This document shows, in pieces, positions 5,035 through 32,027 of a stretch of 46,427 nucleotides of DNA. The stretch is from Synechococcus sp. M44_DOE_062 (GTDB lineage Bacteria; Cyanobacteriota; Cyanobacteriia; Thermostichales; Thermostichaceae), in NCBI GenBank assembly GCA_015295985.1, contig DVDX01000081.1:1-46427 (forward strand), in the 5' to 3' direction. The notes beneath the pieces are model-generated. The model saw only the letters and a list, made by a program, of their open reading frames with translations, ran no database searches and had not been told where the DNA came from. The number at the start of each line of letters is the position of its first letter. Positions within the stretch are counted from its first letter, which is position 1. The position numbers and the translations under genes were made by a program.

Positions 5035-5260
5035 GTTGCAAGACATTCGCTTAGCCCCTTTGCTGCCAAGCCGGATCCCAATCTTGTCTTGGATAAGTAA
5101 AATCTCCTATGGGGTTCCTGTGACCAACCTCCTCACCCAAGTTTTCGGAATCCCACTGCCAAAGGGCGCAATCCCAACGGGTATCGAGGGCTTGAGGATG
5201 CGGTGGAAGTTTGAGATAAGCTGGCCCTGAGGGGATGTTGTTGGAACAGGAGTGACAGCT

Positions 5261-6952
5261 ATGCGGTGCTCGTGGCCCCTAGCTCTAAGCTTGTGTTGGA
5301 CGCTGGGCTGGTCGGCTGTCAGCTTGCCGGCTTGGTCGCAAGGGGTGGAGCAGCAAGCCTCGCTGGCCTGGGCCGACGCCTATGTGGCGGCTCTGGAACG
5401 TCAGACGGATGTGGTGATTACCCGAGAACCCCTATCGGCCACCCTGACCCGTTTGGAATTGGCCCAATGGCTGACGGAGTTTTTCGGCTACATTCCCAAT
5501 CCCAACCAGGTGCAGGCAATTCGCGATCTGGAGCCCAACACCCCCGACTATTGGACTGCCCAAGCTGTGCTCCAGGCGGGGGCCATGCGCCTATACGAGG
5601 GCAACGAGTTTCGCCCGCAAGGGGACATCACCCACCTAGAAGCCCTGGCCATTTTGGTGCGGGCTCTGCAGTTGCCTGCTCCCACCCAGGCTGACATTGA
5701 GCGCTGGATGGCTCTGTACACCGATGCGGCTGATGTGCCGGAGGTAGGGCGGGCTTTTGTGGCCATGGCCGGCGAAGCGGGGCTGCTGGTCAATGTGCCG
5801 GATCCGGCCCGTCTTCAGCCCAATCGCGTCCTGAGGCGGGCAGAAGGGGCGGTGTTGCTGCATCAGGCCCTGGTGTATCGCGGTCAGCTTCCGCCTTTGC
5901 CACCCCCCGTGGCCCAGTTGCGTCCCTCCCCAGCCCCGGTGGCCGAGACCGTCCAACCCGAAATCTTCCGAACGCGGATTACTCCCGAAGAAGGAAGTGT
6001 TCCTGCGGGGGGAACTCTGACCATTGAAGCGCAGGCCACTCCCAACGGCAGGGCTACGGTCGATATCGGCGGCGTGGTTCAGGGTCTGCCGATGCAGGAG
6101 GTGCAGCCTGGCTATTACCGCGCAGTTTACAGCCTTAGCCCTCAGGATACCGTCTTTGGCCCCGACATCAGCATTCAGTTGACCCTCAATGGCGTCAGTA
6201 CCCGTGTTCAACGGCGGCTACCTCAACTGGCCTTGGGGAATGTCGCTCCCCCGCCGGTGGAATCGGTGTTTCCGCCCCCGGCTCCTCTGCCGCAGCCGTC
6301 CCCTGCCCCTTTGACTGCAGCCGGCAATCGCTATCCGCACATTGCGGCCATTCGCTTGGATCCCCAGCGCGACTTGGTGGAAGGGGATATTCTCACCATT
6401 GCTATTTGGGGGGAATCTGGAGGGATCGCCCAGTTTGATCTGGGGAATCTGGTTCTGAACCAGCCGATGCGGGAGGTACGACCCAACCACTACGAAGGTA
6501 CCTATGTGGTGGCTCCCACCCACCAGGCCAACAATCCCACCTTGCGGATTGTGCTCACCAAGGACGGCCTCAGCCAGGAACATGTGGAGATCTTTCCCTT
6601 TTCCATCGATGGCTCCAGAGGAACCCGCTCCACCATTCAGCCGGTCTCCGCACCTGTTGCCGTGGGGCCGCCCCGGATTTTCAGTGTCACCACCAACAGC
6701 ACCAACCTGCGCATGGGAGAAATTCTCAAAGTCACCATGCGAGGGGATCCGGGAGGGCGAGCTGCTTTTCGGATTGTTGGGGTAACGCCGGAAGTTGAAA
6801 TGCGGGAGGTGGCACCGGGCCTATACGAAACCCAGCAGCAACTGCCCTTCAACATGCAGCCGGTTAACAACGGCATCATCGAGGTGATTTTGCAAAGAGG
6901 GGGCCAAAAGACTACCCAAACCAGCCCCTCGCCCATTACCATCGCCCCTTAG
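5261..6952 (+). CDS. Exported SLH-like protein with three repeated beta-sandwich-like modules
   Basis: A 563-residue exported protein. Residues 1-30 form a signal peptide ending SLPAWSQG. Residues 35-210 look like diverged SLH repeats (TRLELAQWLTEFFGY, ITHLEALAILVRALQLP), which usually anchor to the cell wall. A proline-rich linker (LPPLPPPVAQLRPSPAPV) leads into three similar modules of about 95 residues, each with a core like MREVxPxxYEGTY: MQEVQPGYYRAVY, MREVRPNHYEGTY and MREVAPGLYETQQ. These suggest tandem Ig-like or filamin-like folds. ATG 5261 is chosen over the upstream in-frame GTG at 5252 because ACAGGAG lies 7 bases before it. Probably a cell-envelope structural or adhesion protein; the exact role is unknown. 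Confidence 0.7.
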   Translation: MRCSWPLALSLCWTLGWSAVSLPAWSQGVEQQASLAWADAYVAALERQTDVVITREPLSATLTRLELAQWLTEFFGYIPNPNQVQAIRDLEPNTPDYWTAQAVLQAGAMRLYEGNEFRPQGDITHLEALAILVRALQLPAPTQADIERWMALYTDAADVPEVGRAFVAMAGEAGLLVNVPDPARLQPNRVLRRAEGAVLLHQALVYRGQLPPLPPPVAQLRPSPAPVAETVQPEIFRTRITPEEGSVPAGGTLTIEAQATPNGRATVDIGGVVQGLPMQEVQPGYYRAVYSLSPQDTVFGPDISIQLTLNGVSTRVQRRLPQLALGNVAPPPVESVFPPPAPLPQPSPAPLTAAGNRYPHIAAIRLDPQRDLVEGDILTIAIWGESGGIAQFDLGNLVLNQPMREVRPNHYEGTYVVAPTHQANNPTLRIVLTKDGLSQEHVEIFPFSIDGSRGTRSTIQPVSAPVAVGPPRIFSVTTNSTNLRMGEILKVTMRGDPGGRAAFRIVGVTPEVEMREVAPGLYETQQQLPFNMQPVNNGIIEVILQRGGQKTTQTSPSPITIAP

Positions 6953-18565: not shown

Positions 18566-19117
18566 TCAAATTAAACTGTTAGCACCATTGGCGATTAATC
18601 GTTTGAACAAAGCCTCGCTCATGCCTGTTTCCTGTTGCACTGCATTGTAGGCCACCTCAAGGTAGGCTTGCTCAATAAAGGAGAGGTCAATCATACAGAC
18701 CTTGCTCAAGCTGGTGCGCAACTGCTCAGGCTTACCTTCTTTCACCAACCGCCGACTGACCTCCTGCACAACTGTGGCCATAGCAGGCACAACATGTTGG
18801 GGGCCGATCCCAACGCGCACATGAACTATGCCAATCTTCCAGCGCCGCTCAGCGTATTGTGGCCCCCAGTTATCCATGCCCGTGAACATTTCCTTGAACC
18901 AGTCGGCAAAGGTTTGGCCCAGCCGCTGCCGGTTGTGTTTGGCTATCACTGCCGCCATTTCGGCATCGCGATCCAGATAGCCGTAAAAGGCGTCCGACAT
19001 TTCTGCCGCGATACTGCTGCCCCAGTCGGCACTTTGCTGCGAAACTTTCTTGTCATCATCTGTGAATTACGTGCGCGAGATCAGGACTTGGAGCAGCTCC
19101 GAAGGTTTAATCGCCAT
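18566..19117 (-). pseudogene. Protoglobin-like sensor with in-frame TAA at codon 17
   Basis: The frame from ATG 19117 encodes about 183 residues of a single-domain globin sensor. Helix-rich DAFYGYLDRDAEMAAVI is followed by RRWKIGIVHVRVGIGPQHV, where the histidine in IVHVRVG is the likely proximal heme ligand. GAGG sits 6 bases before the ATG, and the first 16 codons (MAIKPSELLQVLISRT) look coding, but codon 17 is TAA (19069-19067); the frame continues FTDDDKKVSQQSADWG. ATG 19000 could restart translation, giving 144 residues that keep the heme pocket but lose the first helices. Either a recent pseudogene, a shortened sensor, a base error or readthrough. It lies between Roadblock and GTPase genes, suggesting heme-gas input to that switch. 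Confidence 0.7.
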
Positions 19118-28274: not shown

Positions 28275-28934
28275 GTGCGTGTGCGATCTGAGGTGTCCCG
28301 CCTGGTAGGGTTAGCTGTGCTGACAGTGGTGCTTTGGGTGGGGTTGAGGGATCTCCCTGTCTTGGCCCGTCCGCATGCTTCTCATGCTTCTTATGATTTG
28401 CTCCTGGCACAACAATTGGGCAAACCCGTGAAAATCTACAACAGTCCCCCCCCAATGGTGATCGACCCGGCTAAGTCCTACACGGCCACCATGGAGACCA
28501 CTGCCGGCACGATGGTTTTGGAGTTGTTCCCCCAAGAAGCTCCCCTCACCGTCAACAATTTTGTCTTCTTGGCCAATGATCACTTCTACGATGGCGTGAT
28601 TTTTCACCGCGTGATTCGGGGCTTCATGATCCAAGGCGGGGATCCCACCGGTACAGGGCGGGGCGGGCCGGGGTACCGCTTTCCCGATGAACCGGTGCAA
28701 CGTCCCTACAGTCGCGGCACTTTGGCGATGGCCAATGTCGGCCCCAACACGAACGGCAGCCAGTTTTTTATCATGCATGCCGACTATCCGCTGCCTCCCA
28801 ACTACACAATCTTCGGGCAATTGATCGAGGGAGAGGATGTGCTGGACAAAATTGCAACGGCTCCCACCGGCCCCCAGGATCGCCCGCTGAATCCGGTGGA
28901 GATCAAGTCCGTTCGCATCTCGGAATCCAACTAG
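28275..28934 (+). CDS. Cyclophilin-type peptidyl-prolyl isomerase, exported
   Basis: A 219-residue cyclophilin. Residues 1-32 form a signal sequence (LVGLAVLTVVLWVGLRDLPVLA), placing it in the periplasm or thylakoid lumen. The catalytic core has FHRVIRGFMIQGGDPTGTGR, where the Arg of VIFHRV and the FMIQGGDPTG loop are active-site features, and MANVGPNTNGSQFFI. It assists proline isomerisation in exported or lumenal proteins. The start is GTG. Standard length for an exported single-domain cyclophilin. Confidence 0.92.
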   Translation: MRVRSEVSRLVGLAVLTVVLWVGLRDLPVLARPHASHASYDLLLAQQLGKPVKIYNSPPPMVIDPAKSYTATMETTAGTMVLELFPQEAPLTVNNFVFLANDHFYDGVIFHRVIRGFMIQGGDPTGTGRGGPGYRFPDEPVQRPYSRGTLAMANVGPNTNGSQFFIMHADYPLPPNYTIFGQLIEGEDVLDKIATAPTGPQDRPLNPVEIKSVRISESN

Positions 28935-29020
28935 CTTGGGGCAACCCAGTGGAACAGTTTGGTTAAATTAACTTGGCCTCTGGCCTCATTTTTGCAACTT
29001 GCTCTTAGGGGGACTCAGGT

Positions 29021-30319
29021 ATGGAGTTCGCTAGGCCCCGGCGAATGTCCCCCCGCATTCTGGTTCTGGATTTTGATGGTGTGCTCTGTGATGGGCGGGC
29101 GGAGTACTTTGCCTCTTCCTGCCGCGTTTGTGCTCAGGTGTGGGGCTTGGCTCCTACCCAGCTAGAGCCGCTGCGTCCTGCCTTCGACCGTCTGCGCCCG
29201 CTGATCGAGACCGGCTGGGAGATGCCTCTGCTGTTGTGGGGGCTGCAGCAAGGGATCCGGGAGGAGGACTTGCGCCAGGACTGGCCCGGCTGGCGTCAGC
29301 GGTTGTTGCAGCAGTCGGGGATCCCTGCCCCTTCTCTGATCCAAGCGTTGGATCAGGTGCGGGATCGCTGGATCGAGGCGGATCTGCAGGGGTGGCTGGG
29401 GCTACACCGCTTTTATCCGGGGGTGGCGGCTTGGTTACGCCAGGTTCAGGCTGCAGGGGAGCCGCGCTTGGCCATCCTCAGCACCAAAGAGGGACGGTTC
29501 ATTCAGCAGCTCTTAGGCCGAGAAGGGATCCAACTGCCACGCCACCGCATTCTGGGCAAGGAGGTGCGCGCCCCCAAGGCCACCACTTTACAGCGGCTGC
29601 TGGCTGCCGCTCAACTGCCGGCTGAGGAGCTGTGGTTTGTGGAGGATCGCCTGCAAACGCTGCGCCAGGTGCAGAGGGTGCCGGAGCTGGAACAAGTTCT
29701 CTTGTTTTTGGCCGACTGGGGCTACAACCTGCCGGAGGAAAGGGAAGAAGCTGCCCGAGATCCCCGTCTCCGTTTGCTCAGCCTGGAACAGCTTTGTCAG
29801 CCCTTCGACTGTTGGATTGCCCCTTCTCCCCCACCGCGCCTTTCTATCAGTCCTGCCAGCTCGGAAGACTTGAGCCAGGCTCGGCCCACCCCTGGCCGGA
29901 AACGCCCGGAAGCCGGTTTGGCCTCTCTGGTGCTGACCTTGGTGGAGCTGTTGCGGCAGTTGATGGAGGCGCAGGTGGTGCGGCAAATGGAGGCCGAGCG
30001 CCTTTCTGCAGAGCAGATCGAGCGGGCCGGCAGCAGCCTACAAGCCTTGCGGGAGCAAATTCGACAAATCTGCAGCCTGTTGGAGATCGACCCGGCGGAT
30101 TTGAACCTGGAGCTTGGAGATCTGGGCACCCTCCTGCCCCGCCAGGGGGACTACTACCCCGGACAACCCCATCGCGAGGGATCCCTGCTGGAGTTGTTGG
30201 ATCGGCTGATCCACACCGGCATCGTCATCGATGGCGAGATTGACCTGGGGCTGGCGGACTTGGATCTCATTCACGCCCGCCTGAAGCTGGTGCTCACCTC
30301 CAGCGCCAAGCTCTACTGA
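29021..30319 (+). CDS. HAD hydrolase fused to gas-vesicle protein GvpK
   Basis: One uninterrupted 432-residue frame. Residues 10-265 are a HAD hydrolase: LDFDGVLCDG (nucleophile Asp17, Asp19), AILSTKEG (motif II Ser/Thr near 154), APKATT (motif III Lys187) and WFVEDR (motif IV Glu208/Asp209). A proline/serine-rich linker (266-296) leads to residues 297-432, which match cyanobacterial GvpK along its full length: GLASLVLTLVELLRQLMEAQ, then IDPADLNLELGDLGTLLP, YYPGQP, and a GvpA-like tail LLELLDRLIHTGIVIDGEID ending LIHARLKLVLTS. No other gas-vesicle gene is in the window. ATG 29021 is preceded by GGGGGACTCAGGT. The HAD half resembles stand-alone cyanobacterial hydrolases. The joint function is unknown. 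Confidence 0.85.
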   Translation: MEFARPRRMSPRILVLDFDGVLCDGRAEYFASSCRVCAQVWGLAPTQLEPLRPAFDRLRPLIETGWEMPLLLWGLQQGIREEDLRQDWPGWRQRLLQQSGIPAPSLIQALDQVRDRWIEADLQGWLGLHRFYPGVAAWLRQVQAAGEPRLAILSTKEGRFIQQLLGREGIQLPRHRILGKEVRAPKATTLQRLLAAAQLPAEELWFVEDRLQTLRQVQRVPELEQVLLFLADWGYNLPEEREEAARDPRLRLLSLEQLCQPFDCWIAPSPPPRLSISPASSEDLSQARPTPGRKRPEAGLASLVLTLVELLRQLMEAQVVRQMEAERLSAEQIERAGSSLQALREQIRQICSLLEIDPADLNLELGDLGTLLPRQGDYYPGQPHREGSLLELLDRLIHTGIVIDGEIDLGLADLDLIHARLKLVLTSSAKLY

Positions 30320-30443
30320 GCCCGCGGATTGAGAGTGCTGATGGAGACGATTGGGAGAAGAGATGCCAGAAGCGGGAAGAGAGACCGGAAATCGCGGTAT
30401 GCTGGCTGTGGATCCCCCTCATCTCTCTTGGTCGTCTTCCCCT

Positions 30444-32027
30444 ATGGATGTTTTTGCCCCAACCGGAAACTTGTATGCCGGTGCCATTTGGCCGGAAGTG
30501 GTGGTTACCCTCACCCTCTTGCTCGTCTTGGTGGTGGATTTGGTTGGCGGGTCGGCGGCGCGCAAAAGTCTTCCAGCCCTCTCCATCTTTGGCTTAATTG
30601 GGGCCTTGGTGACCTTGGTGCTGCAATGGCAGCAGCCCCAGTTGGAGAGCTTCTTGGGCAGCTTTGCGGCGGATCCCATCAGCATTCTCTTCCGTGGCCT
30701 GGTGGTGGGGACGGCGGTGCTGACCGTGATGATGGCAGAGCGCTACATCGCCCAGTCGGGAGCGCCCACAGGCGAGTTTTATGTGTTGCTGCTCACCGCC
30801 ACCTTGGGGGGCATGTTCCTTTCCGGGGCGACGGACTTGATCCTGGTGTTTGTATCTTTAGAAACACTGGGCATTGCCAGCTACCTGATGGCCGGCTACA
30901 CCAAGCGGGATCCGCGTTCTTCGGAGGCAGCCCTGAAATATCTCTTGATCGGGGCCAGCAGCACGGCCATTTTCCTCTACGGCATGTCCCTGCTCTATGG
31001 CCTTTCCGGCGGGCAAACGAAGCTGGAAGCCATTGCCTCATCCATGGGGGATGCCGGCTTGGCAGGGATCATTGCTTTGGTGCTCTGCATTGGTGGCATT
31101 GGGTTTAAGTTGGCGGCGGTGCCCTTTCACCAGTGGACACCTGATGTCTACGAGGGATCCCCTACGCCGGTGGTGGCCTTTTTGTCAGTGGGATCCAAAG
31201 CAGCAGGCTTTGCCTTGGCGGTGCGCTTTCTGGCCACTGTATTTCCGGCCATGACGGAAGAGTGGCGGGCGGTGCTTTCGGTGTTGGCCATTCTGACGAT
31301 GATCTTGGGGAACGTGGTGGCGATTGCCCAAACCCGCCTCAAACGGCTGCTGGCCTATTCTTCCATTGGACAGGCAGGCTTTGTTTTGATCGGCTTGGTG
31401 GCGGGCACTGAGGCCGGCTACGCCAGCTTGATCTTCTACCTCATGGTCTATTTGGTCATGAACCTGGGGGCCTTTTTGTGCGTCACCCTGTTCAGCCTGA
31501 AGACTGGTACCGATGAAATCAGCGAATACAGCGGCCTCTACCAGAAGGATCCCTTCCTCACCCTGTGCTTGAGCATTTGTCTGCTCTCGTTGGGTGGATT
31601 GCCCCCTCTGGCGGGCTTCTTCGGCAAGCTGTATCTGTTCTGGGCCGGCTGGCAGGCAGGGGCCTATACCTTGGTCTTGGTAGGGTTGGTCACCAGTGTT
31701 ATCTCCATCTACTACTACGTGCGGGTGGTGAAAACCATTGTGGTGAAAGAGCCCCAAGAGATGTCGGTTTCGGTGCAAAATTACCCTGAGACCAATTGGC
31801 AGGCGGAAGGCATGCAGGCTCTACGGGTGGGCCTGGTGTTGACTCTGGTGGCCACCATCTTTGCCGGGATCCTCTCCAATCCCCTCTTTACCCTCTCCAC
31901 TCAGGCAGTAGAGCAAAGCCCCTTCTTGGGGTTCCCAACTGCACAAGCATTCATTCCGCAGTCGGCAAGACTTCAGGTGGCAGTCAAGGGATCCCTGGGT
32001 TCGTCTGCTCAGACTGGCGAAGGATAG
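30444..32027 (+). CDS. ndhB: NAD(P)H-quinone oxidoreductase subunit 2
   Basis: A 527-residue polytopic membrane subunit of the cyanobacterial NDH-1 complex, one of the antiporter-like proton-pumping subunits used in respiration and cyclic electron flow. About fourteen spans are visible. Conserved stretches include [40 protein letters not shown] and [17 protein letters not shown]. The frame is open from 30351, but [20 protein letters not shown] at 30444 fits the family's N-terminus; no strong ribosome binding site marks it. Stand-alone, as in other cyanobacteria. Gene-free 32028-32387 downstream has only a short direct repeat at 32306-32334. Confidence 0.94.

Follow-up and report, generated by a model that had tools for sequence, protein, structure and literature searches.

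A HAD-superfamily hydrolase fused to the gas-vesicle protein GvpK in one cyanobacterial genus with a dispersed gvp gene set

Introduction

A single gene of Synechococcus sp. M44_DOE_062 raises the question of what GvpK, a protein of gas-vesicle assembly, does when it forms the C-terminal half of a hydrolase and is encoded far from all other gas-vesicle (gvp) genes. GvpK was reported to be indispensable in each of the four types of gas vesicle investigated, with its role unexplained; it is apparently soluble, is absent from purified gas vesicles, and is required for the contact between GvpA2 and GvpL (PMC11445434). The haloarchaeal GvpK binds GvpL (PMC7688916). An earlier note on this DNA proposed that the fused GvpK had been recruited to a task outside gas-vesicle formation. 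The analysis presented here covers the stretch of 46,427 nucleotides that carries the gene (the window), which is the entire contig C82 of a 2.93-Mb genome, and extends to related genomes and to the phylum. It points to a different answer, namely a lineage-specific fusion in which both halves probably keep their ancestral functions.

The fusion gene and its surroundings

The gene occupies positions 29021-30319 of the forward strand and consists of one frame of 432 codons for amino acids, which runs from an ATG at 29021 to a TGA ending at 30319 without an internal stop. Its first part (residues 1-265, 29021-29815) is the HAD hydrolase half, identified by a Pfam match (PF00702, residues 12-211; 31.1 bits, cut-off 26.4), its orthologues, the structure model, and the predicted fold. 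A linker follows (residues 266-292, 29816-29896), which is fast-evolving, contains in-frame indels, and is predicted to be disordered. The GvpK core domain (PF05121; residues 293-372, 29897-30136) matches profile positions 6-85 of 85 with 104.5 bits (cut-off 25), and the GvpA-like C-terminal part of GvpK (PF00741, Gas_vesicle; residues 388-426, 30182-30298) matches with 49.2 bits (cut-off 25). The earlier description of one open frame that joins a complete HAD protein to a complete GvpK with its GvpA-like tail is thus borne out.

A Shine-Dalgarno-like motif, AGGGGGA (29007-29013, forward strand), precedes the ATG by 7 nt, and two other genomes of the genus (G006 and G007) carry AGGGGG(C) at identical spacing. 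In two further genomes (G004 and G005) the frame opens at a TTG 16 codons upstream of the ATG used here (locus L116, position 10064, and locus L117, position 7414). The ATG with its Shine-Dalgarno-like motif looks the likelier start. A scan for promoter-like sequences gave no signal above chance.

The neighbouring genes, identified by Pfam and all on the forward strand, encode a cyclophilin-type peptidyl-prolyl isomerase (PPIase; 28275-28934) upstream and NdhB, subunit 2 of the NAD(P)H-quinone oxidoreductase (30351-32027), downstream. The six genomes of the genus all have these two neighbours beside the fusion, and in none of them is the gene part of a gvp cluster. Among the open reading frames scanned in the window no gvp gene besides the fusion was recognised, in agreement with the earlier note, which had seen none for at least 17 kb on either side. 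The window also contains two long frames (321-1751 and 5252-6952, of 476 and 566 amino acids) without a Pfam match at E 1e-6, and a small protoglobin-domain gene (144 amino acids; 18566-19000, reverse strand).

Conservation and selection

Each of the remaining five genomes in the genus encodes a single GvpK, which is fused to the same HAD protein in a frame of 436-470 codons. The gene order PPIase, HAD-GvpK, NdhB is common to all six genomes, two of which (G004 and G005) are single-contig assemblies, and indels in the linker between species comprise whole codons only, so that the frame is never interrupted. The dN/dS ratios are 0.095-0.16 for the HAD half and 0.02-0.12 for the GvpK half, as compared to about 0.2-0.65 for the linker where a ratio was computable. 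Judged by these ratios, purifying selection is acting on both halves. Because the same fusion occurs in six genomes, the linker changes by whole codons, and both halves are constrained, the linker can for all practical purposes contain no missed stop, frameshift, or assembly join, which the earlier note had named as points to be checked.

The properties of the linker also bear on whether the two halves act as separate proteins, released by cleavage of the linker or by translation from an internal start. The disordered model and fast evolution of this segment would suit such a scheme. However, the six genomes share no internal start codon, and their frames are unbroken throughout; we regard a separation of the halves as highly improbable.

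The HAD half

All four HAD motifs reported earlier are present. Motif I (D17-F18-D19, 29069-29077), motif II (T155, 29483-29485), the lysine taken as motif III (K186, 29576-29578; K180 is invariant too, and the motif III assignment is tentative), and motif IV (E208-D209, 29642-29647), all on the forward strand, are invariant across 36 aligned sequences. The fused HAD proteins moreover retain 52 of 53 columns that are invariant in 30 standalone HADs. The model of this half is of high quality (pLDDT about 94) and predicts a Rossmann-like core with a cap, probably of the C1 type as judged by the helices that separate motif I from motif II. A structure search with Foldseek returned 83 PDB matches at E values up to 0.001, and those listed are almost all HAD proteins; the hits include C1-cap HADs resembling phosphoglycolate phosphatase, and predicted phosphatases. 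NCBIfam names no substrate: the best match (HAD-IIIA) reached 17.1 bits against a cut-off of 44.6, and the phosphoglycolate phosphatase family 16.5 bits against a cut-off of 225. A sequence search found no solved structure for this HAD family.

Standalone orthologues are common. A sample of 386 genomes spread across the phylum yielded orthologues of the HAD half in 184, mostly as single copies, and nearly all members of the cyanobacterial class listed have one, including those with small genomes of 1.6-1.8 Mb. The standalone proteins mostly share 42-52% identity with the fused half over the full domain, most of those of 257-294 amino acids 45-52%, with lower values in the small-genome family. 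By its catalytic residues and full-domain similarity the fused half thus belongs with a single-copy cyanobacterial HAD hydrolase of C1-cap, phosphoglycolate-phosphatase-like fold, which elsewhere is standalone and often lies near a gene with a NurA (nuclease) domain, whereas here it is fused to GvpK. A NurA-domain gene was found near the standalone HAD at 56 of 88 loci (L135-L213, for example L167:4866-6065) in a sample rich in Nostocales; this neighbour is a possible clue to the ancestral role of the enzyme.

The distribution of the enzyme is informative with respect to a coupling of its activity to gas-vesicle assembly, in which GvpK would recruit the phosphatase to a vesicle in formation, or else would itself be controlled by the substrate state of the HAD domain. 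The retention of the fusion in 6 of 6 genomes, the intact catalytic residues, and the constraint on both halves speak for such a coupling. Against it stand the many genomes of the phylum sample that have the single-copy HAD orthologue and no GvpK, three genomes (G200, G289, and G351) that have GvpK without this HAD, and the absence of GvpK from the stretches of 9-16 kb that were inspected around the standalone HAD genes. Nothing here points to a functional link before the fusion. A coupling is therefore unlikely. The same low probability applies to the more specific proposal that control runs from the phosphatase to GvpK, or the other way, when gas vesicles are seeded, and we are equally doubtful of its corollary that buoyancy responds to a metabolite.

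The GvpK half and the dispersed gvp genes

In all six fusions the GvpK half retains 37 of 38 columns that are invariant in 29 standalone GvpKs. The exception, at residue 32 of this half, is an arginine invariant in the standalone proteins that is replaced by glutamine in every fusion. The GvpA-like tail is a normal feature of cyanobacterial GvpK and not special to the fusion, as three standalone cyanobacterial GvpKs of about 150 amino acids that were tested gave the same pair of Pfam matches. The fusion thus shares full length and both Pfam domains above cut-off with cyanobacterial GvpK (PF05121, about 150 amino acids), and differs in the position of GvpK behind a HAD domain, its location away from gvp genes, and the common arginine-to-glutamine change. 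The structure model is poor for the linker and for the C-terminal part of GvpK, its alignment having contained two GvpK sequences only, and in a search for solved GvpK structures the match was limited to the GvpA-like part, against structural proteins of gas vesicles.

The fusion is the only GvpK encoded in its genome, and the same is true of each of the six genomes of the genus. A whole-genome search recovered the other gvp genes on five other contigs: gvpA, gvpC, gvpN, and gvpJ lie together on contig C26, gvpF on C48, a second gene of the GvpF/L family on C12, gvpG on C53, and a weak GvpV-like match on C28. The products of gvpF and the second F/L gene score above the Pfam cut-off and below the stricter cut-offs of NCBIfam. 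Because the single-contig genomes G004 and G005 also carry these genes at distant sites, the scatter is real and not an effect of draft assembly. Across the genus the gvp set, consisting of A, C, N, J, F, a further F/L gene, G, and the V-like gene, is essentially complete yet dispersed, with A-C-N-J alone remaining together; for gvpC and for the V-like gene this is based on three genomes out of six. In Anabaena PCC 7120 the cluster has the order A-C-N-J-K-F-G-V-W (PMC7204071). Compared with the cyanobacterial cluster, as found in this strain and on a plasmid of Nostoc sphaeroides, the components here are the same, with the exception of gvpW, which the analysis did not tell apart from the second gene of the GvpF/L family. 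A-C-N-J are likewise together, whereas K, F, the second F/L, G, and the V-like gene are on separate contigs. A published description of gas vesicles in the fusion genus was not found in the literature search.

These data speak against the earlier proposal that GvpK no longer serves gas vesicles and has taken on the tethering, regulation, or assembly of the enzyme. The earlier note had named as a refutation a complete gvp cluster elsewhere in the genome in which this gene fills the normal GvpK role, and in essence, though in dispersed form, such a set is what the genome contains. The proposal drew on the distance of the gene from other gvp genes and on its fusion to an enzyme. The distance is not specific to gvpK, because all gvp genes except A-C-N-J are dispersed. 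Furthermore, the fused protein is the sole GvpK in genomes that retain the other gvp genes, and it preserves nearly all invariant positions of the family. A second GvpK that could have freed the fused copy from gas-vesicle duty was sought and is present neither in the genome nor elsewhere in the genus. A recruitment to another task is thus very unlikely.

Distribution and origin

The survey for the fusion covered 9 genomes of the order and the 386 of the phylum sample. GvpK is present in 55 of the 386 phylum genomes, and GvpK frames longer than approximately 225-230 amino acids occur only in two of them, both of the fusion genus. In a scan of a collection of named genomes, which was ranked by score with the best 80 loci kept and hence contains no GvpK-only loci, one locus (L134) matched the fusion at full length and the other 79 matched the HAD half only; L134, from a metagenome-assembled genome, probably represents the same genome as G007. 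No phage gave a match and the viral contigs contained no GvpK relative, which rejects a phage origin of the fusion, and a plasmid-borne fusion was likewise rejected, as the plasmid search returned a standalone Nostoc GvpK only. No published HAD-GvpK fusion was found in a literature search that left out many subscription journals, and within this scope the arrangement is undescribed, as the earlier note had suspected. HAD-GvpK joins two known families in a domain arrangement that is new and that, in this survey of the phylum, occurs in one genus.

The sister genus (G003) has a standalone gvpK directly 3' of a gvpF/L gene, and this arrangement looks like the older state. The N-terminal stretch of its GvpK, MQITAAQPQDWGQ, aligns with the linker of the fusion in G006, LSITPAQPEELSQ; this similarity is suggestive only, and would mean that the linker consists in part of the old GvpK N-terminus. 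In the GvpK tree the G003 protein branches as sister to the fused GvpKs, a moderately supported placement (89/86, as compared to 99/97 for the fused clade itself) such as vertical descent would give. In a related genome (G002, 91% complete; locus L123, G002:C201 5413-7923), gvpA, C, N, J, F/L, and G are present and no GvpK was found. In G002 a distance of 1.3 kb separates a gvpF/L gene from the PPIase gene, which in the fusion genus is the neighbour of the fusion; this is a hint that the site once belonged to a gvp neighbourhood.

Function of the fusion protein

The most probable explanation, in which we have good though not complete confidence, is that two unrelated genes were fused in this one lineage, in which the gvp cluster has become dispersed, and that the product retains the ancestral function of each. 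A common cyanobacterial gene for a phosphatase-like HAD protein would have been joined to the only gvpK of the genome in an ancestor of this genus, and the product would be a two-domain protein on a flexible linker. The GvpK half would act as GvpK ordinarily does, at an early step of gas-vesicle assembly where it brings GvpA into contact with GvpF/L proteins, and would do so together with the products of the other gvp genes, which are spread around the chromosome. The HAD half would retain the housekeeping hydrolase activity, whatever it may be, of its standalone orthologues. No link between the two activities is required, and the sole direct consequence of the fusion would be their joint expression from one gene. 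That the fused GvpK most likely does its normal job follows from its being the only GvpK in a genome with a scattered gvp set. We infer the retention of both activities, and likewise the formation of gas vesicles.

The invariant columns kept in both halves support retained function. The arginine-to-glutamine change common to all six fused GvpKs counts against it, and the genus-wide occurrence of the fusion could mean that a physical link between the enzyme and GvpK is useful. The explanation fits the published picture of GvpK as an essential, soluble protein whose fusions to luciferase fragments have mostly left gas-vesicle assembly undisturbed (PMC11445434). Should gas vesicles be formed in the genus, this natural fusion, which is stable across it, would show that GvpK accepts a sizeable soluble enzyme of 265 residues at its N-terminus, and it offers a natural anchor point for tagging. 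Should the unlikely coupling nevertheless be true, a metabolic enzyme would be wired directly into gas-vesicle assembly in one cyanobacterial genus. A genus with a complete but dispersed gvp set can also serve to test to what extent gas vesicles need clustering and co-transcription of their genes for assembly.
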